DNA from: Hydractinia symbiolongicarpus
Lineage: Eukaryota > Cnidaria > Hydrozoa > Anthoathecata > Hydractiniidae
Length of the DNA stretch: 64,000 nucleotides
Direction: 5' to 3'
Assembly (NCBI RefSeq): GCF_029227915.1
Contig: NC_079878.1
Span: forward strand, 7,936,001-8,000,000
This document shows, in pieces, positions 5,903 through 58,800 of the stretch (its first letter is position 1; each line of letters begins with the position of its first letter). Under the pieces are notes generated by a model. The model was not told where the DNA came from. It made no database searches and worked only from the letters and a program-made list of their open reading frames with translations. Position numbers and translations under genes: made by a program.

Positions 5903-6875
5903 TCAAAGGCCTAGATTCATTGTAACATATAGTAAATGCTCTGCGTCGTCCTCCACATAACCATCTTTGGCTGTCTCCGAACGCCATCTACCATGTCGTT
6001 TAAAAAGACGCTCTGGGACGTCTGCATTTGCCGCTGCTGTTGCTCCTCCAGCACGTAGGCTGTGGAGTCCGAATCTTGTCCTATCCAATCCGATTGATGC
6101 AAGTGCATCGAGTGGATTTTCTCTTGTTGTTGTGTAGCTGATTGGGCGGTTCATCTTTTTAAAACTTCCGAATTTGTTGTTTGATGTAACTGTGACCGCT
6201 CTAAACAGATAGGAATCAGGCTCAACAGATACATACTTCATATACTCAGTTAAATTATATACTGGGCAGATCCTATTTCCGCAAGCGCTGATGTAAACCC
6301 AGTTTCTCTCTCTGTAGATATCTGTTTTGCTTTTCGCTATGAACAGTTTCATAAAGATATTTTTTGTAAATGACGTCACATCTTTTCAGATTACTAATTT
6401 CCGAAAACTTAAGAAAGCCACAGAATCCCAAGAGAAAGATATTAAAAGTTCTAAGTTTGTAAAGGTTAACAGCTTCGCTTTTAACAAGTTGTTTATGAAA
6501 TGCGTGCAAACGTTCAACCGTAATTATGTCTTTCTTGCGAGTTTGATGTTGTAGTAGGCGTTTAGCGGCTTCGATTATATTTTTTGGTAAAGTGTGGTCG
6601 CATGGGTTATTGTAGCCTGTCAAATTGTGAAAATACTGGATAGCGTAGAATGCGATTTCGATTTTAGGATAAGAATTGTTCATTTGGGTTAGGTTAAGTA
6701 TGTACAACGCAACTGTTTGTGGTAGAGCTGGTAATTTTGATACAGAATATTTTTGACACCATGCATTCCATGAATTATAAGAATAATAGTACGTTTTTAT
6801 CGTATTATTCCCCCTGGAATTTAAGATATATTCTGGTAGATCTTTTGCTAAATGCCTCAAAGTTTCGTTTTCCAA
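5903..6875 (-). pseudogene. DIRS tyrosine recombinase, frameshifted
   Basis: The N-terminal SAM-like core-binding half lies at 6875-6370 (ILNSRGNNTIKTYYYSYNSW), and the catalytic half in another frame at about 6379-5903. Catalytic signatures seen are HSLRAGGATAAA (H-x2-R), HGRW (second His) and DGYV (nucleophilic Tyr). The place of the first catalytic Arg, usually GFLRFxE in this family, reads GFLKFSEI, so Arg is replaced by Lys. One frameshift near 6370 joins the halves. In intact relatives this enzyme integrates circular cDNA without a target duplication. Confidence 0.87.
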
Positions 6876-7008
6876 ATGGTGCGTATAATAAATTGCAAAG
6901 AGTTCTAAAATGTAAAAAACATTGCCTATTGATTTTGAGTTTTTGTGTGTCCAGTGACTGCATGTCTTAGTCCAGTGACGACACCGTCGCTGTCCCTGTG
7001 GATTCGGT

Positions 7009-9195: not shown

Positions 9196-9640
9196 GCTTG
9201 AAGGTTGACTTTCTCTTGGTCGCCTTTTTCTTGTTCAGAGCCCGGTTTTCCGCAGCCTTCATCTTTTTGTCATCCTCTGAACCGCTGGCAAGATCATCGG
9301 ATAAGTATTCGTCGACAGCAGCCCATCCAGCCGGAGATTTATCTGCGAAACGGATACATTTGTTTCGCTTGTGGAGATCATCTATGACATTATTAATCTT
9401 TTTGGAAGATCTTGCAATCGAACCATCTTTTACTAGTTGTTTTATTATTTCTAGACTTTGAATTAAATCGCTATTGAATTGTTGTTGTATTTTATTACCT
9501 CTGAATTTAAATTCGGTTTTACTGACCTTGTGCTGCTCCCGAAGACGTTTTTCCAAGTTTTTCGATCGAGTGGTAAGCCTCTGTTCTAGATTTTCGTTCT
9601 GTTCTTGGAAGTTACATTGAAGCTTCTTGTTGCTCAGTCA
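8978..9640 (-). pseudogene. DIRS gag-like ORF with CCHC zinc knuckle
   Basis: Open from about 9620 down to a stop at 8978. The N-terminal part is Gln/Lys/Glu-rich and probably coiled coil, followed by a basic linker (KKATKRKSTFKHVPRR). It ends with a retroviral-type knuckle, CFGCGKQGHWRKDC (C-x2-C-x4-H-x4-C), which is known to bind element RNA. A likely ATG at about 9625 is out of frame with the body, implying another small frameshift. The 3' end overlaps the RT frame by about 218 nt, as is common in DIRS elements. Confidence 0.8.
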
Positions 9641-11926: not shown

Positions 11927-12038
11927 AATTAAATACTAGTAAATAAATTATTCTGTAGGATAATTAGATACGACGTAAATAACTTATTCTGTGCATAATT
12001 AGATACTATGTAAATAAATTATTCTGTAGGATTTAGCA
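11927..12038. repeat. Tandem repeat of about 36 bp, three units, over the SLC37 stop codon
   Basis: Three consecutive imperfect units of the form TAAATAAATTATTCTGTAGGA / TAATTAGATACGACG. The rightmost unit overlaps the last codons and stop of the SLC37 gene, so the final residues LNPTE are written by repeat sequence. Confidence 0.7.
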
Positions 12039-13644
12039 AAGGGTCGCTCTCAGTGTTATTACTGACACGACCTCTATTTGAACGTGATAGTCTGTTCATA
12101 GAATCTAAATATACTTCTTTTATCTCGTGAACAAACTGTCTGGAGAGAAGTAAAGCTGCGAGGGTATCAGAAATTATTAACATGTAAAAGACGCCAGCCC
12201 AAGAGTTAGATGACGATGCTATAACACCGGCTAACAATGGTCCCAGTGCAGCACCCAATGAACCTGTCCCATCGATGATGGCTGTTACAACTGCCATTGC
12301 TTTAACGTTACCTTTTAAACATTTGTGTGTTCCTAAACTTGCTGACACTGCTGTTGTTATTAGCGCGTAGGGGCCATTTACAAAGAATCCAGAGATGATC
12401 ATGCATGCGATAAAAAGCGTAGCGTTGGTCGTCCCGTAAAAATAAAACATATACAAACTTGGACCAGCAGATAACAGCATAATCACATTCACAATGCCCG
12501 GTTTATGGGTAATATCAGTCATCAGACCAGCAATGATTCCACCGACAGCTCCACCAATGTCAAAAAGAATTGCCCAATGGGCGGCTTTCTTTGAGTCATA
12601 CTTAATACCGTCGATTGGTGTGTTTACGATGTAGTATGGCAACCAAAAGAGAAAGGTGTAACTCACAAGCTTAGCAAAAAATAAACAAAATGCATATTCC
12701 ACTACTCCAGGTATTTTTAATGCACCCCATATACCGATTGCTTTCGGTTCAACTTTTTCTTCGACAGTTCTTTGGAAAGGATCATTATTTGAAAGTGTAT
12801 CCATACATAAAGAGGAAGATGATGATGAGGAGGAGGGTTGCTTGTTATGTTCGTAAAAATCAACATGGCTTGGATGTGGTATCAAAAAAATAAAAATAAT
12901 CACTCCTACGGATGCAATAATAATACCAGGAACAATGAACGATAGACCCCAATTGGTGTTAACGAATGCACCGGCTACCAGAGAACCGAGAATATTTCCA
13001 AGAAAAATGTGGCAGTTCCACGTGCACATAATGAAACCGCGATGGCCCTCTGGAAACCAAACGCCAACTGCTTCGACTACACAAGGCCAACCTAGAAAAT
13101 AAGAAGAAGAAGCTTTGTCTAGTTTTACTAATTTTTTGATGAACCTTAGAACAGAATATGACATCTTACATCACGTACCGGTGGAATGTGTTATACCAGT
13201 AATGATTTGAAAAAGGACGAAGAACGATAAGGAGTGTATGTTTAAATAGTAAGCCAGGCCAGACAAGCAGGTAGAAACGCCAGTTAAAACCATACCAATG
13301 CTAAGATAGATTCTCAAATTTGTGTGTTCCGCTAGATAGCCACTCACAAATATAGCAAGTGCGTATGAGACTAAGAATGTAGAATCTAACAATCCGAACA
13401 AGTCCTTGTTCTTGTCAGTATCTTCAAACGGAACCCAAGGTTCACAAGAATTATTTTTTGTTTTGGGGCATTCCAACTCAGGCTTCACAATACTGAAAGA
13501 GCGCTTCGCTAGGTGGTATGATGTGTAGGCGATAAATGTGAGAATGATAACGGCTGCTTGATAACCGACAAGTTGCCATCTCTTTGGTAAGTTTCGGAGT
13601 AAGTGTTTGTACAGAGATACAGTTGGAGCTGTGCGCAATACCAT
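12019..13644 (-). CDS. SLC37A2: SLC37-family sugar-phosphate/phosphate exchanger
   Basis: Two exons: 13644-13179, and 13091-12019 after an 87-nt GT-AG intron whose splice rebuilds a Gly codon ([14 protein letters not shown]). The product is about 512 residues, close to the family length of about 500. It is a major-facilitator transporter expected to have 12 membrane segments. Family signatures include the N-terminal [17 protein letters not shown], [22 protein letters not shown] and the NILGSLVAG helix. Vertebrate SLC37A1/A2 sit in the ER membrane and exchange glucose-6-phosphate for phosphate; the same role is inferred here. The ATG at 13644 begins the conserved N-terminus, so the gene appears complete. 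A Ser-rich central cytoplasmic loop (SSSSSSSS) is present. A1 and A2 cannot be told apart, so the symbol is approximate. Confidence 0.9.
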
Positions 13645-14717
13645 AGTATCTAAAAATAACCATATGCGTCACACTATACTTCAAAAAGTAGTTGGGAGAA
13701 TACCCAAAGCGTAACAAATTAGTTTTGCTCAGTAAAATCCTATATGAAATGCTTATACAAATGAAAATTATGTGAAACTAAAGATGTTTTAGCTGTATAA
13801 GCAAATTTTACGAAAGGTGGCGTTATGGGTGTTAGCGCTTTTAGATTCCCTTAACACCAATAAATTTTCCTTTTAAATCGCACTATATCAATTTAGAAGC
13901 TGCAAACCGTGGTTCTTCTTTTTTTTCTTAAATTATGTTCTTAAATTTTTATCAACATAAAAGCTCATGAAATATCAATTCTCAAGTAAGTGTCGATATC
14001 TTTCTTCATAATAAAAATAACATTCCTCGTAATTTTAATTGAACACACGACTTGGTGTAAAATACTAACCTTGCTGAACTTTTAATTCCAAGTGAAACAC
14101 TAAACATTCAACAAAACTTTCTGGTATTGTTTTGTAAAGCTTGAACAATTCGCTCGAACAGCAGTTGTTGTCCTCGCTGTCGAAGTCTTTTTAAAATATC
14201 TCAAGCCAACATGCATCAGGGTGTGTGTGTTTTCGGCCAGCTACCATTTTTAAGCCTTTATTCGCTACCTCCTACAAACCATCCAAGCAAATCTACTTGA
14301 GTTAAATCTAAGTAACTCAACCATGTAAATTGCGTTTTTTTTTAAAAAAAGTTGCTTACATTCCAGAGTAAATTTTACTATTTATCCACCCCCTGTTTTT
14401 TTTTAAAAAAATTGAGTCTATTAACATTTTAATTACAACTTTGTCACGCTAATAATTATTTTCAATCGACTATGGTGATAATAAAGGTTGCTACGTGTGT
14501 TTATTATCTTGTGTTTAAAAGACGTAGCTGAAGTTTGCAAAGTTTTTAAAAGCACAAAGAAAAAACACAAAAACATTGAGAACAATGTTGGTTAAAAGCT
14601 TGCCCTCCCCCCTTTAAAAAACGTTCATCTTATCCTGTTTATACTATGTTGAGAATTCGTAATTTACCATAATAAAATTCGAAAACATGTTGCCTCGTTG
14701 AAAACCGCCATTATGAT
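13645..14717. other. Intergenic stretch upstream of SLC37
   Basis: It should hold the SLC37 promoter and 5' UTR. Poly-A/T runs lie near 13918 and 14335-14410. I see no distinct regulatory site and no gene. Confidence 0.4.
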
Positions 14718-16777
14718 ATGAATTCCTATATCGACGATTTTTCAAAATTACCATTTAGTTTGATATTTACATTCGATGATCCAGATGAACAAATAGATAC
14801 ACTGAATCATCTCATATTATCCTGTATTGAACGTCATGCCCCACTGAAGCGAGTAAAGCTAACACGCCCGATCGCTCCGTGGATGAAAGACCCTGCCATC
14901 CAAGACAGTCGAAACAAACTGGAATTTTATCGTAAAAAAGCCCAAGAAGATCCAAATTACAAAAATGACTATAAAGAAAAACGCACTAATTATCGAAAGA
15001 CATTGAAGGAAATAAAAAACTCGTTCTTCAAGAAATCGTTATCGTCAAAGGATCAAAAATCTGTCTGGAATACTATTCATCGTATTCTGAGCAATCAAAA
15101 AACACGAATCAAACACGATCCTTCAGAAATGAATGAATATTTTAGCAATCTAGCAGCAAACCTAACTGGGAAATCAAACGTCGAGTCTACATTACCAGAT
15201 GATATCAAAACTACTGAAAACGAACAATCGTTCAAAATTCAACATACTACTTACAATGAAATAAATAAAATACTAAAAAATCTCAAGAATGACTGCTCCA
15301 GTGGTCATGACAATATTCCAATACGATTTATCAAGCCAGTATCAGAATTCATAACATCCCCTCTGGTCCATATTATTAACAATTGCATCAACAAAGAAAT
15401 ATTTCCCCAGCAATGGAAGATTGCTCGTGTTTGCCCAATACCAAAGATCAACACACCAATTAGCACAAAGGACTATCGTCCAATCTCAGTACTGCCAGTA
15501 TTGTCAAAAATCTACGAGAGAGTAATCTTATCTCAGTTATGTGAATTCATTGAAAGTAATCAACTTTACAATGAAACACAATCCGGTTTTCGCAAAGGTC
15601 ATACGACTACCACATTGATGCTTAAGCTTCGTGACGACATAAAAAAAGCAATGGCGAAAAGTGAAGTGACACTCTCTATCCTCATCGATTACTCCAAAGC
15701 TTTCGACACGATTGATCACAAAAATCTGCTACTGAAACTACGTGATATGAATTTTTCATTTCGTGCTTTAAAGATATTATCAAGTTATCTGAAAGATAGG
15801 AAACAATACGTTCAAATTGAAGACAAAATTTCATCTTTAAAATCAATGTTTTACGGTGTACCACAGGGTAGCATACTTGGCCCTGTCCTGTTTAACCTCT
15901 ACGTCATCGAGTTATCAAATCAAATCAACTCCGCCAGTATCCAATATGCTGATGATACAACATTATATAAACACTGCAAAGTCAGAGATCTATTTCAATC
16001 AATCAAAGATATGGAAAAGGATGTAGATAACCTTCTAGCTTGGTCAAAAGAAAACAATCTTTTGTTCAACAGTGACAAGCTTAAGTTAATCATATTCCAT
16101 TCTAAGCGACTGAGAGCATTTGATTCTGACCGAAGCTATCTTTGTCGTTGTGCTGGTATGTCAATCGAGCAGGAAGAAAATGTTAAGTTACTTGGCATTC
16201 AATTCGATCAAAATCTATCATGGACCTGCCATATAAACAATGTTATAAAATCCTCGCACTCAACACTACGTGCTCTACGAAAGTTTAGTCGTTTCACACC
16301 TTTCCATGTACGCAAAACCTTGGCGGAAACGTTGATCTTATCAAGGATAAGTTACGGTAATGTTGTCTTCTCGCAAATACCTGATTATCTGATATGTCGG
16401 CTACAAAAGACCAAAACATGGCTGCTGGTTACGTTCTCCGCCGTTATGCTAATCTGCAAGAAGTCACGAATCTAAAATGGCTTCCCGTAAAAGAACATAT
16501 TGAATTCAGTATAAGTAAACTTGTACACAAATCGAGAATTGATAACAACCATCCAAGCTATCTAAACGTAGAGTTTGTTGTACCAACACGAAATTTGAGA
16601 TCTTCTACGAAGGAGCCTCTTGTTAAAAATGTTGGAAATGGCACTTTTCAAAACCAAGCACGGTGTTACGATGAAATCCCGGATAGTATAAAAATTATTG
16701 AAACTCTAGAAAAATTTACTAAAGAAGCAAAACAATTTTATCTAAATAAGGCAGTCGCTAGAGTCTTGTCTGTTTGA
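14718..16777 (+). pseudogene. Non-LTR reverse transcriptase, frameshifted
   Basis: The frame from 14718 to 16475 carries the linker and RT: SGFRKGHTTTTLMLKLRDD, LIDYSKAFDTIDHKNLL (RT2), GVPQGSILGPVLFNLYV (RT4) and the catalytic YADD at about 15947-15958. The C-terminal domain moves to another frame near 16415 and runs to 16777. It holds the family's typical tail (GYVLRRYA, LPVKEHIEF, YDEIPDSIK). The segment before RT (APWMKDP, then the KSVWNTIHRIL block) is what normally joins endonuclease and RT in CR1/Jockey-type ORF2. The ATG at 14718 is simply the first Met after truncation. Confidence 0.88.
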
Positions 16778-32954: not shown

Positions 32955-32960
32955 GAACAC

Positions 32961-33110
32961 TACGATGGCCCACAAGGGTCACAGTGCGAGAATTTTTTAT
33001 ACACTGCGCGAGAATTCTAAAATGTGCGAGAATTTTCTGCTACACTGCGCGAGAAATCTAACTGTTGTGCGCGAGAATTTCGAAACTGTGCGCGAGAATT
33101 TATATTTGTG
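32961..33110 (+). repeat. Left terminal inverted repeat and subterminal motif array
   Basis: A 94-bp TIR is followed by further motif copies. Six GCGAGAA(T/A)-type copies occur at roughly 22-bp intervals, most as TGCGCGAGAATT. They are likely transposase-binding sites. Confidence 0.88.
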
Positions 33111-33949
33111 TTAGAAAGATTCTTATGAAAATCAAATTTATGCTATTTTTACAGACCTTGGTCTGAAGTTTATCTGCAGTATCCTGGAACCGAGGTTGAA
33201 CTCCACCACAGCGCCTCCCATACCATTTATGGAGGACTTATTTAGGTATCTCGGGGTGAGAGCAAAGTTGTTCTGTTTGTTTTCCAAATTCAAAATGGAT
33301 TCTGTACTCAGACGTTTAGTGAGGGAACAAGTTAAGGAAGAAGTCAGGAAAGAGGTGAAAGAAGAAATTGAAAGAAGTATTTTGTCAAAACAAGACCAAG
33401 ACCAAGCTTGTAATGGAGAATCCAGTGATATCAAGAACGAACAGAAGAGACATGGAAACATCACTACCAGATTGAACACTTTGTTGACAAAGATAACCAA
33501 AAAAAGGCTTAGGTAAAGCTAGCCGTACCTAACAGCCGTACCTAAGCCGTACCTTAGCCGTACGTAACTACACTTTTCTTTTTAAGGTGAGGTAATGTAT
33601 TTTAATGGAAAAAACTGAGCTAATCGTAGTGGTAAATTTGTTGTGTCACTGAATTTCTGTTTCTCAATCGCCAATGAACCCGCAAAATACGAAAAATGTT
33701 AACGAAACATCTTGCTCTAATATAAACCAAACGGGGGAGAGCGCGGGAAGGTGATTCCCAAATCGACAAATTAAGTACGGCTGGCAATAAAAAGGTGGTT
33801 AGTACGAGCGGTGAACTTCAATGCGACTTATCAAGTAAAGTAAAATAAAGGGGATAGGTAAGGAAAAGAGAGGAAAAATATGAAAATTATAAGACAACAT
33901 ATATTTTACGGTTGGGTCCTATCATATAAAAAACAACTTTAAAGGCTAA

Positions 33950-34830
33950 AATATGTACAATAAAAACGAAATTAAGTTAAGTACGGCTAGCTAAAATAAG
34001 GTACGGCTGGACCATATTAAGGTACGGCTAGGTCCTATCGTATAAGAAACATCTTCAAATGCTAAAATTGTTCAATAAAAACGAAATTAGGTTAGGTACG
34101 GCTAACTAAAATAAGGTACGGCTGGAAAATATTAAGGTACGGCTAGGTTCTATCGTATAAAAAACATCTTCAAATGCTAAAATATGTTCCATAAAAACGA
34201 AATTAGGTTAGGTACGGCTAGCTAAAATAAGGTACGGCTGGACCATATTAAGGTACGGCTAGGTCCTATCGTATAAGAAACATCTTCAAATGCTAAAATA
34301 TGTACATTAAAAACGAAATTAGGTTAGGTACGGCTAGCTAAAATAAGGTACGGCTGGAAAATATTAAGGCACGGCTAGGTCCTATCGTATAAGAAACATC
34401 TTCAAATGCTAAAATATGTGCAATAAAAACGAAATTAAGTTAGGTACGGCTAGCTAAAATAAGGTACGGCTGGACCATATTAAGGTACGGCTAGGTCCTA
34501 TCGTATAAGAAACATCTTCAAATGCTAAAATATGTACATTAAAAACGAAATTAGGTTAGGTACGGCTAGCTAAAATAAGGTACGGCTGGAAAATATTAAG
34601 GCACGGCTAGGTCCTATCGTATAAGAAACATCTTCAAATGCTAAAATATGTGCAATAAAAACGAAATTAAGTTAGGTACGGCTAGCTAAAATAAGGTACG
34701 GCTGGAAAATATTAAGGTACGGCTGGGTCCTATCGTATAAAAAACATCTTCAAATGCTACTAATGTTCCATAAAAACGAAATTAGGTTAGGTACGGCTAC
34801 CATTGCTCGAAATTAAAGTACGGCTGCACA
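33950..34830 (+). repeat. Tandem array of about 116-bp units, left arm of the foldback
   Basis: Each unit has three GGTACGGCT boxes (before AGCTAAAATAA, GGACCATATTAA or GGAAAATATTAA, and AGGTCCTATCGTATAA), then AACATCTTCAAATGCTAAA and AAAAACGAAATTA. Alternate units carry GGACCATA or GGAAAATA, hinting at a two-unit higher-order period. Confidence 0.9.
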
Positions 34831-34933
34831 TCTATTTAAAGTAAAATAAATTGTATAGCTAAAAATATAAAAAATATTACCTAAGAAACAAAATGTTTTA
34901 ACAAATACGAACACGATAATATATAATTATATT

Positions 34934-35248
34934 TTAATAAATATCACTATCAGTGTCAGATTGATTGCTTACATTCTGTAACGTTTCCATTTCTAGGACC
35001 AAATCTGTAACAGATCTATCCGATCTTGATGCAATATATCGAAACGCTAACAACTGTAAAAGAAAGATGTCGATAAAATCAAAGGTCGTAAAGAGTGATT
35101 TAGAGGTAGCTGAGATAGATACAGGCCAGTTCTGTTTAAAGTCAGTCAGTGTGACTCTTAACCCAATTGCCAAACAATTCAAAAAAATACTGGGTAAGAA
35201 CTTGGCCAGGGCTTCCTTCCTTGACGCTGCTAATGACATTCTCTCCAT
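34934..35248 (-). CDS. Unrecognised ORF in the foldback core
   Basis: A 104-codon frame starting MERMSLAASRKEALAKF and ending with an acidic SDTDSDIY. The same frame stays open upstream to about 35360 without another required start. An overlapping plus-strand frame (34965-35342) is also open, so at most one of the two is real. The composition looks protein-like, but I recognise no domain. It may be a remnant of the element's own gene or captured sequence. Confidence 0.3.
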   Translation of the reverse strand: MERMSLAASRKEALAKFLPSIFLNCLAIGLRVTLTDFKQNWPVSISATSKSLFTTFDFIDIFLLQLLAFRYIASRSDRSVTDLVLEMETLQNVSNQSDTDSDIY

Positions 35249-35339
35249 ATTACTTCGATATTGTCGACTTCTGATGATAGTGGCGATGCTTTTATCGAAG
35301 GTTTCATCATTGACTGTTGCACAACAGTTGTTTCTTATA

Positions 35340-35740
35340 TGATAGGTCCCAGCCGTACCTTAATATTGTCCAGCCGTACCTTATTTTGGTTAGCCGTACC
35401 TAACTTAATTTTGTTTTTATTGAACGTTTTTAGCTTTTGAAGTTGTTTCTTATATGATAGGACCCAGCCGTACCTTAATATGGTCCAGCCGTACCTTATT
35501 TTGGCTAGCCGTACCTAACATAATTTCGTTTTTATTGAACATTTGTAGCATTTGAAGTTGTTTCTTATATGATAGGACCCAGCCGTACCTTAATATTTTC
35601 CAGCCGTACCTTATTTTGGCTAGCCGTACCTAACATAATTTCGTTTTTATTGAACGTTTTTAGCATTTGAAATTGTTTCTTATATGATAAGACCCAGCCG
35701 TACCTTAATATTATCTAGCCGTACCTTATTTTGGCAACCG
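35340..35740 (-). repeat. Inverted right-arm array of the same unit
   Basis: About three and a half units of the same repeat in inverse orientation, recognisable by AGCCGTACCTTAATATT, AGCCGTACCTTATTTTGG, AGCCGTACCTAAC and TTATATGATAGGACC. They are more diverged from the left arm than left-arm units are from each other. Confidence 0.88.
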
Positions 35741-38700
35741 TATTTAAATTTAGCCAGCTGTAGTCACTTTTAGCGCTAGCTCTAATATTGTCCGCAGCGT
35801 AATAATGTTCAATCTTACTTTACTAATGTTTTTCATACATTCAATTTTAAAAATCTCTTTTGTATTTGTATTAAAATCATTTTATAAAAATTATAATACA
35901 TGTAAGATATATTATTATCGGTATTTCATCATTGAGGATTCCCTGGGGGTTACTGGGGCTCGACGATGGAGTGCTCCATTTTGCATCATTTTTATCGGCA
36001 TAGATATTCACCTAAAAGACGAAATAAAAGTTAGACAATTTAACTTTGATATACATTAACTACTAATTTTAAGCTTAGAAGCAAGTGGTCTTACACAGAG
36101 CTGCTAATTACGAATTTTTTTAAGTACGGCTAAGGTACGGCTAAGGTGCGGCTGTTAGGTACGGCTAGCTTTACTTAACCAAAAAAAGTGTTCGTGCTGC
36201 TGGCAATGCTTCAACAAATAAAAAGGATATTAGAATCCAAGTAAGATGGATGAGAGAGGTTGGAGGAAACTGGATAAATGTGAAACAAGCAGAGGGAGGA
36301 GGAAGCCGTTTCATTGCTTTAAATCAGGAGAATCAAACTTTCGAGCATTTATTGACCAAAAGTCTGGATGTTTATTTTGGTGTGTGTGGAAAGAACTGTT
36401 TCAATGAAGACCGACTAGAAGTGACTGCAAAACTGGAAGATTTACCGGTACTACAGTCAACTTACGGGACAGTATTCCAGATTATCTTAAAGAAAGGGGT
36501 TTGTTTCCATCAAAAACATGGTTTGTTTTGAGAACTAGTTTAAATGATAATGGTCCAGAGCTTGAAAATTATTTTGATTATGATTACAATGATGATTGTA
36601 TGTCACTCTCTGATTCTGAGCCTATTACTGCTGCTGGTCCTGCTTTGAAAAGAAAAATTTGTGACACATGCTCGGGCACTTACTTCAGGTTTTGCATCAG
36701 ATGTAAGCAAGATAAGGAGTTTGAACAGTCATTGCAGAAAGATAGTCAAAAGAATTCATTTGACTCTGAAGGTGGATCAACATCCGAAGAACCATCCAAT
36801 GAAAATATTACTGACAGATCTATCGAAAATTTGCGAGAACAACGTATTAAAGCTTTATCTAGTAATTCACCAAAATTAAACTTGGAGAAAGAGTTGAATG
36901 TTTTGTCAGCGAAGTTCATGAAAAAAAGTAAAGTAACTTTTAATATCAGAAGAAGATGTGTATTTAATGATGTTATGCAAAAAATGGAGGTGTTTTTTTC
37001 AGATGCTGAATTGTCTCCTTTCAAGGTAGAATTCACCAGTATGGGTGGTAAGGAAGCTGGTGTAGACACAGGTGGTCCTACTCGTGAGTTAATATCGCTA
37101 TTTTATCAAAGCACAATTGGTAAACTTACATATGGCCGTCAAAATAATGAATTTTTCATCCATGATCTGCAAAAGTTAACAGAAGATCAATATATGTTTT
37201 TTGGAAAATTTGTGTCATTATCTTTATTACATGGTTGCAATCCACCATACTTCAGTGCTGGTCTCAGTGGCTTTATAGTGGGTGAGTTCTTTAAAAACGA
37301 AAACCTATTTTTGCCTTCATGTCATTTTACTGCTTCATGAAATATGTACATTTCGACATTGTTTGGGGGGAGGGGGGGGGGATATGGTTTCAAAGGTTCA
37401 GGGTCAGTGAGCCAAAGGATTAACTAACATGTGATTTCCAAGGTGGCGTTTGGTTTACATTACTGTTGATGTATGGAAGCTTTATAAAAGGCCTTGTTTG
37501 CATGTGTTTCAGTGAATTATTTGGCAAATTTTGATATTGACTTCTTGTTTATGCCTGAGATTATTTAATCTATTTCAGGGCATAAAGACTGTTTATGTTG
37601 CATCGATGACATACCCAGCATTGACCTCAAAATTAAACTTGAAAATATCAGAAATTGTGATAAAGAAGCAGAATTTCAGTCTCAAGTTCAACGTTTCCAT
37701 GAACGATTTGACTATGGTTACAACAAACCATGTCCGAAACTAGCAGACAAAACTGATTTATTGCAAAAGGTTGCTCACCACATCATAATATCTATGCAAT
37801 TAGAGGAAATTCATCAATTTTTAAAGGGACTTGAAGCTTTTGGTGTTCTTGATCTGCTTAGAAAGCATCCTTTGGAAGCCATGAAGTTATTCACTTACAA
37901 CCAAGATCTTGTTGATCCTGAGGTTATCAAGTCCTGTTTTGATGTAACATATTCGAACGAAAGTGATAAAGCTGCCCTAGAGGAAGATATTTTTTACAAT
38001 TGGAAAAACTTCCTCGATGAATTGGGTCACGGTAAGTGTATCACTGTTAAAACTTTCACCGTATCTGATGTCGAGAATGAAAAAACAGATGAGAGTGCTA
38101 AATCAGAGAAAAAACTTTCACTAGGCGATGTTATGATGTTTCTCACAGGCTCTACTGTTGTACCTAATAACGAAAAAATCAAAGTTCTTTTTGATCATAT
38201 AACTGGAAAGGGAAGAATCAGTGTTTCGACATGTCAGTATCAGCTCACTTTTCCGGTTGTACCAAGATATACTGGGTCAAAATTTTCTAGAAACATTACC
38301 GAAGATATTATTAATTCGCCGGGCTTTGGCATTGTTTAAAAATACTTGTTGTTTGATAAGTATATTTTATCAGTGGTATTCTATTGTTTTTTGAATTAGC
38401 ATATTTTTTAAAACATCATTCAGCTTTGCAAATATTGCCCACGACAATGCTTGAATTGTGTTTTTCATAGCCGTTGACACGGGGGGGGGGGGGGTGTCTT
38501 TTGTTTTGTCTTCTGTTTTTGTTGTGTTTTAATTCTGAATGACACAGATTTTCTTTCCTCTATTTTGTTCTGTATTTTATTTTTAATGAAGCTGAATCAG
38601 TGCTTTTTATCATTGATAATGGACCATTCTTCTATTTTGTTTTTTATTTTAACTTTTAATACAGCTGTTTCAAATGTATTAAACATTTTGTTTCAAGATT

Positions 38701-38754
38701 GAAGATTTCAAGATTACATCTGTATTTTTCAACACCAACTTGTTACATTGTTAT

Positions 38755-39903
38755 CTACATAAATTCTGCTACAGCATCAAGTAAAAGAAAGTATATTTCT
38801 AAGGCTTGCTGAATTGTACTTGGACGTCCATTTGGGTGTCCTTTCATTGCAAGGACTGTGTATGCAAATTCAATAAACTCAGGCTCGTTGTCTGCAACAG
38901 CAATAGCAAATGTAGGATCGTTGAATTCGCTGATGTCACTAATGTCAACAAATTTCTTGTATGATTTGCTATTGTATAGCTCTGGTATAAAATGTAAGGT
39001 ATCTGGACGTCTGCGTGGTAGGGTTGAACCTCTGCTCGGTGCAATGATATGTTGATTCCAGCGCACCGCCATATCATCTAAATCTTTTCGAATCAAGTGC
39101 ATAAAACAAAAACGAGCGCATTGAGCAATCAATACATTGCCACCATCCAAATAGCCCATCCCAGAAAGCTCTGCAAAAAACTCTCTCCACCACATTGGTC
39201 TATCCTTGGCCAACTGCGACCAAAAACATTCAATCCTTTGATTGTTCGGAGAGGATCCCACGATGAAACTGCCGAGACCAGCATACTCATCGGTGTGATC
39301 AGCCCTCATGCATATCTGAATGGCCTCGATTATGCTGTTCTCGGTCCCGTCGTCGCTTCTTATTCTAGTAGGTAGTCTGTTCAACTGGGTTACAGCTTCT
39401 AAGAAATAGTTGGCAACAACTTCTGGTCGTTTATTTGTGGGTCCAACTTCGAGCCAAATTAATCGGCGGGAAAACCCGTCAATACAACCGTGTATACTGA
39501 AACCGTAGGGCTTCAGTTTGTCATGCCCGTCCAAGTGCCATAAAAAATCTGGCCCAGGTACACTGTAGATTCGGCGCCTCAACCGTTTCTTTGCGCGACT
39601 TTCAACTCCTACTGGATCCAACTCTCTTAAAATTTCCATGACAGATGATCTTCTGGCTGGTATTCCGTTTGCCTTTATGGCCTTCCACAGCTTTCTGTAG
39701 CCTAAAAAAAGTAAACAACTGTAATAACAGTTTTCACGCCTGGTAGAAAATGCTTGGGAACTAGACATTAAAAAATTTAAGTCCTGTTCGTATACTCATG
39801 CTATAATACCTAGTGACTTTCCACTTCCAGTCAATTCACTTGAAATCGCTTGAATCACTTCCTCTCTGGACTCGTACTGACCAATGCGTCGTCTCAAGCC
39901 CAT
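38755..39903 (-). CDS. IS3EU-like DDE transposase/integrase, intact
   Basis: Two exons, 39903-39810 and 39701-38755, joined by a 108-nt GT-AG intron that rebuilds Gly in KSLGYRKLW. The product is 346 residues with no internal stop. The N-terminal GYRKLWKAIKANGIPARRSSVMEILRELDP resembles the HTH_21 region of bacterial IS3-family transposases. The catalytic rve-like core has WHLDGHDKL (first Asp), IRSDDGTEN (second Asp) and SPNNQRIECFWSQL (Glu). It would cut and join the element's ends and presumably binds the TIR motifs. It converges on the HECT gene 3' end about 415 bp away. The ATG at 39903 gives a basic N-terminus, MGLRRRIGQYESREE; a further upstream exon cannot be excluded. Confidence 0.88.
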
Positions 39904-40199
39904 TTTTCTTAAACTTCTTTTCAATGTTCACAAACTTATGTAAATACTGTGATGAATTGCAAGAAAAGATATTATTTCAAGATTTGTCATGTCTTGAGAG
40001 AAGTATTGCGATATCAAAGAATCACGATCACTGTTAACACTCACTGAAATGCATGGCAAGTGCGTTGGTATAGGCATTATGGCTTCGAGCTATGCTTTCG
40101 AAAGTCCATGCTGTTTCCATTAAAAGAGAAAAAAAGCGCGAAAGAAAATTAATTTTAAAGACCAGATCGATGATATGTAGGCCTGCGATATTTAAAATA

Positions 40200-40400
40200 T
40201 TTTTTCGTCCAGTCTATATAAATTTTCTCGCAATATTTGGAAATTCTCGCGCATTGTTGAATATTCTCGCGCAGTGTACAAAAAAATTCTCGCATAGTTT
40301 ATAAGCTCTCGCGCAGTGTAGTGGAAAATTCTCGCACATTTTAGAATTCTCGCGCAGTGTATAAAAAATTCTCGCACTGTGACCCTTGTGGGCCATCGTA
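40200..40400 (-). repeat. Right terminal inverted repeat and subterminal motif array
   Basis: The inverted copy of the left end. Eight GCGAGAA-type motif copies are spaced 20-25 bp apart; the outer three match the left end exactly and the inner ones diverge. The right copy of GAACAC follows at 40401-40406. Confidence 0.88.
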
Positions 40401-40830
40401 GAACACAGTTTTAAATTTCCCCGCCGTGTCGTCTACTTTTACAGTAGAGTCTCCATAACTCGAACCTCTATAACTCGAATCTCTCCTTAACTCGAACAAA
40501 TTCGTTGGCACCGTGAAAATTTCCTAATAAACTCTTATAAAAAAACCTCTACAACTCCAACCTCCATAACTCGAATCTTCCCTTAACTCGAACAAATTTT
40601 TTTGTCCCTTGGAGACTTTTCTCTCCATAACTCGAATTTTCTGACATCATAATCAAAATTCGAAAAGTTTTCCTGATAAATTGGGTCTAAAAATCTTGTT
40701 AATACGTGTTTTGCAGGCCTTATTATTAATTCGAATGATTAATGATGCGTCATCCAAACCTTTCGAACGTCTTTTTCGAACGTTTTCGAGAAAATCTAAA
40801 GAATTTCAAAAGAAAGACACTCTCATAACA

Positions 40831-43149
40831 ATGTCGTCTGTGGCAGGATCAAAGCGTCGAATTGACAATAAGTCGTGCAAAATCAAGTACAAAGCTCTTA
40901 AAGCGTTGGAAAAGGGTACTGCGCCAAAGGATGTGGCAAAAGAGTTCAAAATTCCTCCAAGCACCCTGTCAACTTGGAAAAAAAATAAAGAAAAGATTTA
41001 CAAGCAGTTTAACAACGGGCAAACATCGAAGAGATCAAAGCCAGAAAAATTCGAAGATGTGAACAAAGCTGTTCATAAATGGTTACTTATGATGAGGAGT
41101 GAGAATATCCCAATCAGTGGCCCGATGCTGAAAGAGAAAGCTCTTGAGTTTGCCGAAGCGTTGGGTGTCGAGTCATTTCAAGCTTCTCAGGGGTGGATGG
41201 CTAAATGGAAAACCAGGTTAGTTGACTAAGATTTTGTTTGTTTATCTTCGTGAAGATAAAATCTAAAAAAATGTTACAATAGCTTTGGTAGTTGTTTTTT
41301 CAAAATATCAATAGACTCTCTTTCAGAGAGGAAGGATAATTTGCATGGGACTTTCATCCCTAATCCATCACCAGCATTCAATGACTTTCCAGTAATTGTT
41401 ATTTTGCAAACATTGAAGCTGTCATTCTTCAGAAAGTAAAATATGACTTTTGCAAAGCGTCCTGACTTTCCTAGTGGTAGATGTCCAATGATTTCTCCAT
41501 CATTTTTCTTGACTGCAACTGCATATTTATCCATTTTATTTGTTGGTTCCATGAAACCATAAAATTCATCTCCAACAGAGGGTGTCCAATTACTTTTATA
41601 AACATGATACCCCATGACAAAAGCGTCGATTTCGTACGTAATAAGTTTAATGATAGGAAGTTCTATACAACAAATAATGTCTGTTAATCTTTTGACTTGT
41701 TGGACTTTGATGGCTTCCATGCTTTCTTTCACTCGTCAAAACTTCGAAACTTGGTAAAAATCGAATCTTTTTCTATTCGAATTCTTTCACAAATCAAAAC
41801 ATGGTAACAATCGAATGTTTTCTATTCGAATCATGGCCATGGCATTCTAAATTTAGAATTCCATGATTCGAATCAAACAAAATGTAAAGCTCCATCTACA
41901 CTAGTCACAACTACAGAGATAAACGTTTTTCTCATCCATTCCTTTCAGGTATGGAGTATCCTTCAAAACCATCGCTGGAGAATCACGGTCCGTCACTGAG
42001 GAAATGACAGCGCCATGGTCGGAGACAACATTACCAACCATTCTCTCCCGCTATCCTCTGGAAGACATTTTTAACGCCGACGAATTTGGGCTTTTCTTTC
42101 AATGCCTTCCCAATAAAACTTTGCATATGAAAGGTGATAAGTGTTCTGGAGGAAAACACAGCAAAGTTAGACTTACTGGTTTAGCTGCTGGTAATGCCTC
42201 GGGGGAACGATTGCCAATGTTTGTAATCGGCAAGTCCGCCAAACCTCGTTGCTTTAAAGGTGTCAAAACACTACCCTGTCGATACCGTTCGCAAAAGAAG
42301 AGTTGGATGTCTGGAGAGCTGTTCGAAGAGTGGGTACGCGAGCTTGATCGAAAATTCTCTGTCTTTAAGCGAAAAATTGCTTTGATTATTGACAATTGTA
42401 CCGCACATCCTCATGTTGAAAACCTGGAATGGGTAGAATTGATCTTTCTTCCTCCAAATACCACGTCCCGAACCCAACCTATGGACCAAGGAATTATCCG
42501 CGCCCTGAAAGCAAAATATCGATCGCTAGCAGTGCGGAAATTGATAAAAGCCTTGGACGAGGAAAAATCGACTCCGAAGTTCTCGATTCTTGCAGCTATG
42601 TACATGCTAAGGAAAGCATGGGATGATGTTTCCAACAAAACATTCACCAATTGCTTTCGAAAATCAGGAATTTCCCAAAAGGATGCAGAAAGAGCGATCA
42701 ACAAAGATGACGACCCTTTTAAAAGTTTAACCAGCGAAGTAGAAGAAGACCCAATTCCAACCCTCGATGCTGAACTCTCTTACATAAAACGAAGGTTTCC
42801 TGACCACATTGATCCTGACTTATCAACTGAAGATTTCATTGATTTTGACATTGAAGTCAGTACATCCCATGGGCGTCTGAAGACTGCTGACATCATTGCT
42901 GAGATCACTGGGACTCAAGACGAAGAATTAGAAGAGGTCGACGAAGAAGACAAGGAGGAAGAAGATAAGATCACAAGACCGACGGCCGAGCAAGTGCGTA
43001 CAGCTATCAACGTCCTCGAAGACTTGAGTATTTTTTCACATTTTGGAGAAGAAATGATAGCTTCCCTGAGGGACTTGAATCGTAATATCGCCAAAGATTT
43101 TGATATGAGTTGTAAGCAAACAGTTATCACCGACTTCTTTTCTAAATAA
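40831..43149 (+). CDS. pogo/Tigger transposase
   Basis: Exon 1 (40831-41216) and exon 2 (41949-43149) join across a 732-nt GT-AG intron (KWKTR|YGVSFKTIAGE) into 528 residues. The N-terminus has two CENP-B-type helix-turn-helix parts: KALEKGTAPKDVAKEFKIPP with STLSTWKKN, and then NIPISGPMLKEKALEFAEAL. The catalytic DDE_1 domain shows FNADEFGLF (first Asp), LIIDNCTAHP (second Asp) and TQPMDQGII (third Asp), which is the pogo DDD arrangement. An acidic tail (EELEEVDEEDKEEEDK) precedes the C-terminus. The chosen ATG gives MSSVAGSKRR; an open extension upstream to 40681 lacks an ATG that matches the family start. No internal stop is seen, so the enzyme may be functional. Confidence 0.92.
41274..41720 (-). 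CDS. HIRAN-like domain protein, antisense within the pogo intron
   Basis: 148 residues from ATG 41720. The core is GYHVYKSNWTPSVGDEFYGF, then NKMDKYAVAVKKNDGEIIGH and LPLGKSGRFAKVIFYFLKND, ending with a GLGMKVPCKL segment. This pattern matches the HIRAN fold, known in HLTF to bind 3' DNA ends, and stand-alone HIRAN ORFs are common in cnidarian genomes. It lies wholly inside the transposase intron (41217-41948) in the opposite direction, so it travels with the element. No intron or signal peptide is visible. The function in this setting is unknown. The intron may itself be a nested insertion, but I see no TIRs around the ORF. Confidence 0.72.
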   Translation of the reverse strand: MEAIKVQQVKRLTDIICCIELPIIKLITYEIDAFVMGYHVYKSNWTPSVGDEFYGFMEPTNKMDKYAVAVKKNDGEIIGHLPLGKSGRFAKVIFYFLKNDSFNVCKITITGKSLNAGDGLGMKVPCKLSFLSERESIDILKKQLPKLL

Positions 43150-43370
43150 ACATTAAAAAATTCATTAAAAGTGTATTGTTTTGACTTTCATTAACCTAAT
43201 AACCCCCTTAAAGTTAGACTTAAGATTAAATATAACGTTTTTATCCAGCTGGTTCACGTAAAGGGAGGATATTGCGCTAAAAGTTGAAAACCTCTACAAC
43301 TCGAATGTCTCCATAACTCGAACGATTTCCTTTTCCCCGTGGCTGTTCGAGTTATGGAGACTCTACTATA

Positions 43371-46181
43371 AATCATTTCGGATTTTCTGTAGCCTGTGCA
43401 GCTACTTGGATTTAGAAGCCAGGCGCCATGCGCTTTCAAATATGAAATAAATGGCTGCATGATATTTCACAACCCATATTTTAACTTTTTTTACTACATT
43501 TTTTTTTAATAATAGTCGTCATTTTGCTTCAATTTTCTTCATAAATCCTCTTCGATATGCTTAAGGTATTTTTATACGCTCTTTTACCTCCACCACAAAG
43601 AGTTATTTTAAAATTTCCAACAACTTTTTTATAAGTAGAAAAAAATTCTACTTGAAATGTTATAAATTTTCGCCAACCAATTGAAATCCTTAGATTCATT
43701 CATGCAGATGATGTTTTCCTTTTGAATAAGTCGAGAGAATAATGAACAATGGAGCTTAAAATAATCTTACGTGTTTTGAAAGAAGATGGCTGAAGGCGAA
43801 GGAATTGAAAAGGAAAATCTGAAAGTGGATTAAAAAAACATGCAGATTAAAAGAACAAAAATAATTATTTAACAGTGTTGTAGGTATTAAGCTATAGTTA
43901 GCGGAGTGGCGCTTCTTTTAGCTTACATGTTTTCCTTCTTTTATAAACATAACGCTTATATCATTGCTTTACAGTCGAATATGCATATTCTATGCATATT
44001 GTTAGCCTTCCTGGCGAATCCTTCTGATGTGTGTTTTCTCTTAGGTATTTTAATCAGAGTCTTTTAAAACTTTATTGATAGCACTGAAGTTAAAGTTAGA
44101 AACAGGATCCTATACATTTATTTAGTTCGCAAGGGAACGTTTAATTTTTTAATTTCTTTCTCCAAGAAGCATAACGTATTCTAAGCCTGATTATGTTTCT
44201 TTAGCATTAGCATATCACAGTCTGAATTTGAATTTGCACTTGCTTATAAAAAAATGCATTTTAAGCATCCACGTACCCCCGGGTTTAATGTCAAAGCCTT
44301 TAGCGCTTACTTGACTGCTAAACAAGTTTTTTCTGGGGACAAGGTTGATTGTGAAGAAGATGGAGAAAGACGTTACCTCTATTGACAGATCACAACCTAT
44401 TCTTAATTCTACAAAATTGACGTTCACATTTATATTGTAACAAGCCACCACGTGTCGCAATATGTTGGACATGTTCATTCCTGTGGACGTGTAGCATGCT
44501 GCCTAATTATTTGTGGTAGTAGCCATGAAACGAACACGATACATGTGGTATCTAGTATGTAGCACACTGTCGCATTTGTTCGTTTTGACCTTTTAAAAAA
44601 ACTAAGGACATTTAAACAACGTGTTCAGCTAAACCCACATCACAGATTATGAGAACTAAATAATTTCTGAGAGAGAATAATTTTCGAATTGAAAGATTTT
44701 TTCCTTTGTGCATGTATGTTTTAAAACTTACCATTATCTATTTATTTGACAAGAAAACATGTTGGTAAGCAATAAGACACTGCCTTAGGAGACCATATAA
44801 TGGAGTGTGATCGCCTCGCTAATTTAATGACTTCTCCATTGTTGTTAAAGAGGCACACAACTATATACTCGAAATAAAGGACAATTTTTTTTGAACACAT
44901 TTAAGATTGTTATATAGTTTTGTTTTTCTTAATGATCCTAAAACTTGTCTATATATAGAGAGAACAGAATTGTAATTTCTCTAACTGCAGTATACAGCCG
45001 AAAGCTAGTAGAAGAAAATAATATGTCAAAAAACACACTTGTATTCAATCAATGTTTTCTTCTAATTCTAAAAGCAAAAATATTCATCGTCACCAATGAA
45101 AAACAAAAGTATATAACAAAGTACAAATATAGCGGTAAAAAAGTTCTTTCTTATTCTTTTACGGCTTTACTGACTCTGAACAAAGAACAGAGGTACAGAT
45201 CATACGAATGTCCTTTTAAAAATTTCTTGCATGTGATAATGTAAATTTACTCTGAACAAACGACAAGAATGAATTAAAGTTGAACGTTCAACTAAAATGT
45301 AGTTACAGCGAAGTAAAATTTTCAACTAGCTAGCATGGGCTAAAAGAATAACATGGGCTTTAACGAGTTTTATATTGACTAAGTAACCAAAATGCTAAAG
45401 AAATGAATCTGAAAATGAGAGATATATTTTTTATGATTCCGTCGCCCTGTATTTAGTAATTTTGATAAAACTGGATATCAGATCATTGTTTATTTATGGA
45501 CAATGGAGCTAGTTAAAAGAAGCATCCAGACGAAATGTTGCTGAATCTGGTTATTTTAACTGCTAAACTTGACATTGTTGTTGTGTTTATCCTATGAAAA
45601 TGTTTTTATCGATAAATAAATATTGTAGGAATTAGATATATAATCATTTCCAATGCTTCTTAAATATTTTTTTTCGTGCTTGTTTACATTTTAAACTACC
45701 ATTTTTCTTGACGACGGTCAATACCGCAATATATCGGCCCGTCGTCAAGAGAGCTAAGCCAATCAGAATGACTAAAAACCTGTATTGCCCGCTTGAAGAA
45801 TCGCGACGGTTAACAATTATTTATATTAAATTTTAGTTGTATCTTCATCACCTTTTTCACTTATATACAAATTTTAGATGTATTTATTTTGATGCTTTAG
45901 CTATCTAGCTATAAGGACCAAGAGAAACTTTTGATTTATGGTCTCAAATTACCCTGCTAGCATGCTATATTACTTGTGATTTTTATGTTATAGTTTACTT
46001 AACAGGTTAAATACCTATCTTGCTAGCAAGGCATAGGATTCTCGGACGCTGGTTCCCAGCCAAAAGAATAGTTATTTTAAATAATTTCATTCACAGATGT
46101 CCCTGTTGCTCAAATGTTACTTAATATAACCGTTTTCAACAAGTGTCGTTGAAAATCAGTTTTCATAAATACTGGGTAAAG
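43371..46181. other. Gene-poor intergenic stretch
   Basis: No gene is supported. The ORFs at 44215-44478 and 44945-45244 have no domain. One hairpin lies at 45707-45749. Confidence 0.45.
45707..45749. repeat. 43-bp hairpin
   Basis: CTTGACGACGG pairs with CCGTCGTCAAG around a 21-bp AT-rich loop. It could be the end-to-end remnant of a small TIR element. Confidence 0.6.
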
Positions 46182-55800: not shown

Positions 55801-58800
55801 ATGCCTCTAACTTTCTTGCCTGCTACACAAGCTGATTAACAGTCAGTAGATGGCACCAACGGGCTGATAACATTACATTCAAAATGCACCGGAGTAAAGG
55901 CCTCGAACATGAAGCCTTATGATTAGAAGCCAAATGCGCTACCATTACACCATCTCCACCTAATCAAAAGTGTAGCACGTATATAACCATCACCCTTTTC
56001 GTCTGTATAATCTCCAGAAGGGTGTTTACTGTAAATAATCTTAGGTTCTAACACAACACATTTAAAAAGAACTCTTCGTCAATTCCTCAAGAACAAACAG
56101 TTTCTTTCAACTCAAATCTCACCACTGTTACACGTGTGTATTGACAAAGGTAAGGTAATCACGTGATACATATAAAAAAGCATATAAAAAAAGGAAATAA
56201 TAAATACGTCGTTTTGGAGGAGTGTTGAAGATCTGTTTCATTCACTTCTTTTTCATTCTTAGTTTCCTCTTCTTCACTGAAATATAGTAAAGTTTTAAAA
56301 TATCGGCATCCCAATTTAACTTAACTTAATAGCAACATAATCTACCTTCTTTCTTCTTCTATTTCATCCACAGGTGCTGTGTTGGGAATAACTTTAGGCC
56401 CTAACATATCTCTCCAGGTTTTAACAGCATCTTCACGAGCCAAACAGAGGGCTAGAGATGGGCCGCTATAAGGAGTAACATAAAAAAGATGACAAACAAA
56501 ACATAGTTGGAAATGTAGACAAAATTAATTTAATATTGTGAACTATGTAGTATTACATTTAAAAGGCGAGCAACTCAACCTTTTTCGCTCAAATGTTTCT
56601 TAATTAAATTAGTGGTTATTTGCCTTGATGTTTCCACTCATTCGTCTTTACTTTATGAAACGGAAGTTATTACGACAGAGTCAAAAGCCTAACAGGTTGT
56701 TGCCCTAGAATATAAAAACTCAAATCTTTTTTCTTTTCTACTAAAGGATTACCTGGTCATGCTGGAGACCAGATTTTCAAAGTAGTCCTGCTCTTTGTGT
56801 TCTGCATAAAATTCTTCCACCTGTTCTCTCGTTAGGTGAACTTCTTTTTGCATTGCGATTAAGAAGCCAGCTTCTTCTATACTTTGAATAATCGACTCTC
56901 TCCTGTTACGTAAAGCATTTGGTCGAACCAAAGCCAATGTTCGTTGAAGTCTTTTTTTCTTTCGTTTTTCGGTAACAACTGGACGGTTAAAATCAGGGAA
57001 GAAAAAAGCTAACTCCCTGGCAGCGCTTTCTCCAGAGTCACAGCTATGGAGAGCGTTTTGAAGTGGATCTGTACCAAACTTTGCTCGTAAACTAAAATAT
57101 AACGACGAACCAACTTTTAATCTCTCCACTAAATGATATATTTCCTCGAAAAGAATACTTAACTCGTTTTCCACTAAATAGTGGAATATAAGGGAATTCA
57201 TTTTCGTGGGAAATCAATTTTGCCAAAATTAGTCCGCGAGAATTATTACTGGGAAATATAATTCCCGTAAGGTATCAGAAAAAATTGACATCGATTTTTT
57301 ACAAGTAAAAGGAAAATCACTTTTAATTATTTTATTTTTTTAATATTATAATAATATTTTATTATTATTTTTTTATTTAGACGAGGCACAAGCATAGAAA
57401 TGCTTCGTGTTCAGCGATACATTTAAATATAGAATACATCTAAAATGCTTTTTTTTTACTATTTTTTATACAATAATTTCATCCAAGATATGTCAGTTAA
57501 AAGGACCAACGAAAAATAATATTTCACTGTTAGTTGGTTTGGTATTGCTTTACCTTTCAGGAGCTTCTTCTTTAGCCATATTAACATCCGCAGGACCAAT
57601 TAAACTTCTGAATTCAGGTATGAGATCTTTACCGATATCTTCACCAGGTTTTGTTACAGCAATTGTCATACAAGGACCACTAGAATAGATTAAAAAACCG
57701 AATTGAAGCCAGAATAATATATCCACTCTAAAGGTTGTGTTTATAAAATTGAAATATATGTCTTTTCACAAATAGGTATATTTGGTACACACCTTGACAT
57801 GAAATCGACGAGCTGCTCAAAATGATCGGTCCCTTCATGTTGTTTGTAAAATTCTGCTGCTTCTTCTCTTGTCAACACGCGTTCCTCTGTACGAAGAACT
57901 TCTAGCCCAGCATTTTTAATCTGTTAATATGTGCAAAGAAAACATTTGCATGTTAATATGAAAATACAATTCGGAACTGGTGCGGGTTTTACGGAAAATA
58001 ATTTGTATAATTTATTTTAGGAAATTAATAATACAAAATATGCCTATCTAAAAATATAAAAGTTATTTAGCCTGATGTCAAGCAAGTTTTAGAATCACCT
58101 TCACAAATGTTTCGAAAAAGGTTCTTTCCTGTGCACGAATATTCTTCGCTAATCGTATTCCTTCAGCATATGGTTAATAATTTTTGAATTATTTTTCAGA
58201 TTCGGCATTAGAAATAAATGTTAATTTTATTTATCACTAGTTAGTAATTGTTTTTAAAAATATAAAAAATAAGCTGGAAAAACATTCGTATTAGAACGAC
58301 AAAAAGAACTCAAATAAAAAATGCTGTCCACCTCTTCAATAATTTGATCAACAAGTCCAGCTTTAACTGCATCAGGTTTTATAATTGCAACTGCCACTTC
58401 TTTCGGAACATCAACTATAAAAACATGAGAATTTAAACATTTCAAATGTTATATTTGTAAATTTATTATATTATATTTTATATTTTATATGTTATTTACA
58501 GTCAAGTGGTTTAGGTAAAATTAGTACATTAATCTGATTGTGAAATTTAAATTATTATTAGTAGTAAAAATTAATATGCTTTAAGTGTTAATTTTTTTTT
58601 TTGTTTTCGTTTCCTATGCATGCATTTAGTAGTTTGGGAAAATGTTTGGAACTAGAAAGCTGACATTCGAATTATTAAACCTTACTCCTAATAAATTACT
58701 TTGCACACTTCAAATAAGCTAGGAAAGTCATAACGTTGAAGCTTTAAAGATGATAAAAAATATTTTCAGACTTTAAAAAAAAATTATATGGCAAATACTA

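Follow-up and report, generated by a model that had tools for sequence, protein, structure and literature searches.

Does a ubiquitin ligase gene found between the ends of a DNA transposon belong to that transposon, or was it merely caught there? The question is raised by an element at positions 32961–40400 of a 64,000 nt stretch of the Hydractinia symbiolongicarpus genome (contig NC_079878.1, positions 7,936,001 to 8,000,000; this whole stretch is referred to below as the window), in which an IS3-like transposase gene converges on a gene predicted to encode a HECT-type E3 ubiquitin ligase. An earlier reading of the window (the original prediction) had taken the ligase to be element-borne. That claim is supported by comparison with other copies in the same genome, through pairing of the two genes in 30 of 31 loci, 23 duplication-flanked units, an empty site and agreeing distances. 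The HECT gene is very probably the element-borne, long-resident second gene of an IS3EU-type lineage, and together the two genes constitute a real, repeated and old transposon system.

Pairing of the two genes across the genome

A search of the genome (481 Mb, 76 contigs) with the transposase returned at least 121 matches, exon pieces being counted singly, and 31 transposase loci were read. The sample is non-random; it holds the window, 20 loci selected for long matches and family spread (including L009, extended by a neighbouring stretch), five extra loci of family 4 (F4) chosen for open transposases, and a last five chosen likewise, four of them divergent and one of family F7. All of these loci except one have HECT sequence in convergent orientation to the transposase. 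Both element ends with an exact 6 bp duplication were recovered at 23 loci (16/21 for the window and the first 20, 3/5 for the extra F4 loci and 4/5 for the last set). The 23 duplications are all distinct, each unit terminates in TAC...GTA, and every unit contains HECT sequence, as the original prediction would require of other loci with similar ends. Ends of the form TACGATGG occur in eight of ten families.

The scan for such units demanded TA..TA termini and a 6 bp match; its specificity therefore rests on the 22–24 matching bases among the 24 compared at the ends, and other duplication lengths fall outside its scope. GAATTC pairs within the long ends of the window copy, L012, L015 and L016 were excluded, this being the sole pair in L016. 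As a control, the same scan returned no ends with a 6 bp duplication in 200 random sequences or in five other pieces of the window. No end pair with a 6 bp duplication was returned for L009, L016, L022, L024, L028, L034 and L039, and L032 has two ends with unlike flanks and no matching duplication. A single element end is present at L009, where HECT is absent even with 10 kb of extra sequence; at L022 one end was seen, and the HECT sequence lies 5.2 kb away from the transposase. An 827-codon, retroelement-like polyprotein open reading frame (ORF), recognized by eye, adjoins the F7 element of L039 (L039:3721–6201) and may have displaced its far end.

An empty site, which the original prediction had proposed to look for, was found for the HECT-bearing copy L014. 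It lies in a related repeat copy (L025:702–998), where the sequence is contiguous with a single CTTATT and 86 % identity (278/322) over the join. At two loci, L026 and L031, both genes are open.

The transposases sort the loci into about ten families. Between families F1–F8, identity is 41–66 % for the transposase and 17–52 % for HECT (broken HECT copies being pieced together), and the F9 and F10 transposases are about 35–40 % identical to those of the remaining families. HECT diverges faster than its transposase, being the less conserved of the two in 35 of 36 pairs, which is compatible with an arms race and is no proof of one. Distances for the two genes are nonetheless strongly correlated, with a Mantel r of 0.97 (p 1.5e-4) for nine rows and 0.92 (p 1e-4) for ten, or 0.88 (p 1.5e-4) minus a near-identical F5 pair; the ten-row set has L039 in place of L028 and omits L025, which is incomplete. 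The group {F1,F2,F3} has 100 % bootstrap in HECT and transposase trees from both row sets. The groups {F4,F5} and {F6,F7} are recovered in the transposase tree with both sets, and in the HECT tree with the nine-row set only and the ten-row set only, respectively. Co-inheritance, which the original prediction had proposed to read from trees, is thus apparent in agreeing distances and a common main split, with some conflicts that are weighed below. In DNA comparisons of three family pairs, nearly all similarity falls within the coding regions and the ends of the elements. HECT coding similarity is evident for F6–F7, which have one 49-base match outside genes, and for F4–F5; that between F1 and F2 is transposase similarity alone.

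Pairing across about ten families, units with their own duplications and parallel divergence together argue that the association is not a one-off capture. The HECT gene has been carried beside the transposase through about ten families of this one genome. By the chemistry of its family, the IS3-like DDE transposase would cut and paste the element at the TACGATGG... ends, leaving the 6 bp duplication.

The window copy and its two genes

The window copy is bounded by 94 bp terminal inverted repeats at 32961–33054 (forward strand, beginning TACGATGGCCCAC...) and 40307–40400 (reverse strand), which pair with 92 of 94 bases identical and without mismatch over the first 77. Identical GAACAC target-site duplications flank them at 32955–32960 and 40401–40406, so that the ends and the duplication are present as originally described. 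Subterminal arrays of a GYGCGAGAATTY motif occupy 32984–33102 (forward, with a spacing of approximately 18–23 bp) and 40240–40377 (reverse); across the window the motif has 17 matches versus 2.6 expected, and 11 of the 17 are within the two ends. CGAGAAT occurs 3–6 times per end in seven family 1 (F1) copies, and not at all in six checked copies of other families. The subterminal arrays are likely to be transposase binding sites.

The transposase gene, on the minus strand, consists of two exons separated by one GT-AG intron, at which the database protein P0001 is also spliced. Exon 1 (39810–40077, with the start at 40077) encodes the N-terminal region with a probable helix-turn-helix, and exon 2 (38755–39701) the IS3-like DDE core, which matches Pfam rva_4 (E 1.9e-33) and bears out the IS3-like assignment made originally. 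Residues D89, D148 and E189 are invariant in 28 sequences and are the putative catalytic residues. An in-frame stop interrupts exon 1 at 39930–39928; it is found in the window only and in none of the eight remaining F1 copies. P0001, from H. symbiolongicarpus, is the closest database protein (100 % identity, covering 94 % of the query), and it appears shorter than its relatives because its gene model takes as its start an internal Met that lies past the exon 1 stop. PDB sequence searches with the transposase gave at most six weak matches, the best with E 0.36, and in one case none. Viral and prokaryote collections, with matches to 2, 12, 9 and 57 stretches, yielded no confirmed relative.

The HECT gene, on the forward strand, can be followed along P0121, an independent homologue of 680 aa without the lesions seen here. 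Its N-terminal coding part (33295–33504) is identical to P0121 at 60 of 62 residues and runs up to a nested insertion. After the insertion, a first frame with the GGGxRF motif region (36187–36443, 85/86 residues identical) gives way near 36443 to the next frame, which contains the CxxC..CxxC motif and the HECT N-lobe (36444–37281, 278/279), with the DTGGPTREL motif at 37065–37091. An intron with GT-AG borders (37282–37578) precedes the last exon, with the C-lobe and stop codon (37579–38339, 246/252), in which the Cys codon of a Ser-Thr-Cys motif is located at 38232–38234. P0121 is spliced at the point of this intron and reads uninterrupted over the insertion site. It is intronless, comes from a contig of 2,225 bases and has 13 cluster members, which suggests a spliced transcript from an intact copy.

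The insertion that splits HECT is itself an element of 2,674 bp (33507–36180), with inverted ends of approximately 60 bp and an 8 bp duplication, AAAAAAAG, at 33499–33506 and 36181–36188. It contains two arrays of 116 bp tandem repeats in opposite orientations; no transposase was recognized within it, and no other copies were found in loci L009–L034. Its left end, GTAAAG, lies beside the coding frame, and intron-like splicing might occur.

The window copy is decayed, both genes are broken, and the element at 32961–40400 is not intact. It had been called complete, a description that fails given the nested insertion, the extra HECT frame break and the transposase stop codon. Of the claim that it holds exactly two convergent genes, the convergence of transposase and HECT gene stands, but the nested element also lies inside. 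Similarly, the DTGGPTREL and Ser-Thr-Cys motifs of the proposed HECT protein were found, but its roughly 710 codons are readable only by skipping the nested element.

The second gene is predicted to encode a HECT-type E3 ubiquitin ligase. Proteins from four loci exceed the Pfam HECT cut-off of 23.9 bits (L026, 25.9; L035, 31.5; L037, 27.0; L039, 40.0), L023 falls just under it at 23.8 bits, and pieces of L019, L022 and L038 gave no match to Pfam HECT. A four-sequence profile headed by P0121 finds the ligase Itchy (2.6e-13), two of its four rows matching Pfam HECT themselves. The column of the catalytic cysteine in the C-lobe is invariant in ten of ten rows from nine families. The product would comprise a variable N-terminal part with GGGxRF and often CxxC..CxxC, followed by a HECT domain with its catalytic cysteine. 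By eye, an N-terminal RLxxLL motif is common to all six families for which that stretch was read, GGGxRF is present in seven of eight families (F3 being without it) and CxxC..CxxC in F1, F2, F3 and F6. A 'QDxEFxxSLxxD' stretch may resemble motifs of other ubiquitin proteins. G2E3 carries PHD-type fingers N-terminal to its HECT domain; no Pfam match to such fingers was found in P0121, L026, L035 or L037, which accordingly do not qualify as G2E3 orthologues. Within a further ORF of 254 codons (L025:5884–6645), an in-frame internal deletion has fused the N-terminal part of HECT directly to the cysteine-bearing C-lobe.

Several other features are found in the window. A Tigger/pogo-like element adjoins the right end of the IS3EU-type copy (40438–43372), with 28 bp inverted ends and ORFs for DDE_1 and a Tc5-type DNA-binding domain. 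Between its two ORFs lies a HIRAN-domain ORF on the minus strand (41274–41735; E 1.9e-4, 21.6 bits versus a cut-off of 24.7). Retroelement remains with broken frames occupy 5903–9637, with reverse transcriptase and, by eye, a tyrosine-recombinase-like ORF. A 599-codon reverse transcriptase ORF at 14676–16475 (RVT_1, 1.2e-30) resembles, by eye, that of a long interspersed nuclear element (LINE). A major facilitator transporter (12019–13668) and a nucleoside diphosphate kinase (56749–57213) are probable host genes.

Related elements and proteins

IS3EU elements have TA..TA termini and usually 6 bp duplications, and comprise 45 Repbase families, with 17 autonomous families counted in 2022 (PMC10045372). 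The present elements share these termini and duplications as well as an IS3-like DDE transposase; they differ in that HECT is a regular partner, the word 'ubiquitin' being absent from the main text of PMC10045372. Additional enzyme genes are described in fungal IS3EU elements, in which the transposase and alpha-kinase genes have opposite orientations with a TET/JBP gene situated between them, and in which the ends are TAYGG..CCRTA with 6 bp duplications (PMC12730594). The likeness is that of IS3EU elements with extra enzymes; however, the enzymes and the hosts are different, with a single HECT ligase in a cnidarian here, and 'ubiquitin' does not occur in the available text of PMC12730594. By analogy, the role of HECT may be comparable to that of the fungal TET/JBP genes (PMC12730594).

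The bacterial IS3 and IS481 families are more distant. With NCBIfam, P0001 matches IS3 best (5.8e-8) and then IS481 (1.2e-5), neither match reaching its curated cut-off (32 and 25 bits versus 160 and 224), and the element described here differs in having introns, long inverted ends and a HECT partner. Among proteins, the HECT product of a divergent element (L035:2072–3879) matches the fish protein P0125 along both its N-terminal part and its HECT part. Fish proteins named in databases as G2/M phase-specific E3 ubiquitin-protein ligase-like share the arrangement of an N-terminal region and a HECT domain, but with just 22–29 % identity.

A full-text search of the open literature, with Repbase and subscription journals outside its range, returned nothing in which IS3EU and HECT occur together. 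In a broader open-literature search on DNA transposons 'HECT domain' appeared in none among the matches listed, and 'phase-specific E3 ubiquitin-protein' combined with transposable element gave no match in the open literature. The Hydractinia genome paper, in the text available, has no mention of ubiquitin or HECT (PMC11067881). In Cottus, some unclassified repetitive candidate elements are reported to match proteins such as G2E3 (PMC5638112), which would fit a transposon source of G2E3-like HECT genes.

Damage, selection and the role of the ligase

Several observations weigh against HECT being an integral, maintained part of these elements. In L020, L021 and L036 the HECT sequence is an N-terminal remnant, and in L034 a remnant of the C-terminal end. 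HECT is damaged in all eight F1 copies that hold it, and five of nine F1 transposases are nevertheless without a stop outside the intron. In F4, HECT is open in two of six loci and the transposase in six of six, five of these six loci having been selected for open transposases; in F10, HECT is whole in none of three and the transposase open in three of three. Since all loci were found by their transposase and, F1 excepted, were partly selected for open ones, the contrast in damage between the two genes is biased, and copies that retain HECT without a transposase would be invisible. P0121, from F1, matches no Pfam family on its own. The ten-row HECT tree places F9 with {F1,F2,F3} and F10 with the rest, whereas the transposase tree joins F9 and F10. 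Additionally, the nine-row trees differ inside {F1,F2,F3}, where HECT pairs F1 with F3 (94/96) and the transposase F1 with F2 (83/88). Given these conflicts and the long branches, old exchange of HECT between lineages is possible.

Substitution patterns belong to the same side of the balance. Within families, the ratio of non-synonymous to synonymous change (dN/dS) is 0.58–1.09 for both genes and 0.69–1.09 for HECT, with no strong recent constraint, and one HECT pair gave 2.44, from two synonymous changes; in this estimate L016 yielded no transposase codons and L034 is absent from the F4 HECT count. Such within-family values would be expected of young decaying copies and did not discriminate. 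Between families, however, HECT frames and the catalytic cysteine have been kept at 17–52 % identity, for which long-term selection would be needed.

A case of spread without an intact HECT gene is given by L010, L011, L013 and L014, all of which have lost the start region of HECT in common and which lie in four different duplications; from the preceding stop to residue 7 of HECT there is no Met. This shared loss is less open to the bias from transposase selection. One F1 subfamily has spread without a normal HECT start of its own, and the lineages overall retain the gene. Spread of that subfamily fits an enzyme that acts in trans and is supplied by intact copies, for instance those at L026 and L031.

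What the ligase does is a separate matter. It may act in trans, its target being a host protein of the silencing, repair or turnover machinery that keeps the element in check; the faster evolution of HECT, together with the TET/JBP genes described in the fungal elements as a precedent, inclines the interpretation towards such a target. A different target, considered somewhat unlikely, is the element's own transposase, the ligase then controlling turnover or stoichiometry as a self-limiting switch. Co-inheritance of the two genes would suit such a switch, as would the frequent combination of open transposase with damaged HECT and the spread of the subfamily lacking the HECT start, loss of a brake not having to stop jumping. 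However, if the transposase were the sole partner, the faster divergence of HECT in nearly every pair would be unexpected.

Rather improbable is a third function, in which the ligase would manipulate DNA repair or the cell cycle and thereby time excision and re-insertion for copy gain. Animal HECT ligases act in DNA repair and cell-cycle pathways, and the HECT of L035 resembles a fish G2/M phase-specific E3 ligase-like protein (1e-17 and 3e-11, each from a single comparison), but the name of the latter is a database label.

Against element-borne residence itself, capture of a host HECT gene by a single element, irrelevant to the system, is very improbable. Single copies and one subfamily have managed without intact HECT, but about ten transposase families, with identities down to about 37 %, hold HECT in the same convergent place, and the explanation is rejected on that near-universal convergence and the parallel divergence of both genes. 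Finally, a host HECT gene bracketed by chance between two unrelated ends, which nothing except the broken state of the window copy would favour, is practically dismissed by the recurrence of the arrangement with exact 6 bp duplications in 23 of the 31 loci and by the empty site for L014.

To our knowledge, eukaryotic cut-and-paste elements have mostly been described by their transposase alone. A ubiquitin ligase that has stayed a partner gene in many families offers a ready system in which to test how transposons deal with the proteins of their hosts, and the loci L026 and L031 make the question of the ligase testable at the bench. The finding also suggests an origin for the abundant HECT 'E3 ligase-like' genes of some animal genomes, and annotators should be aware that such genes may be mobile. 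It is put forward tentatively that HECT-bearing IS3EU elements could be an ancient two-gene system and the source of the multiplied G2E3-like HECT genes in cnidarian and fish genomes. If so, many annotated host 'E3 ligase-like' genes would be transposon genes or their domesticated descendants.

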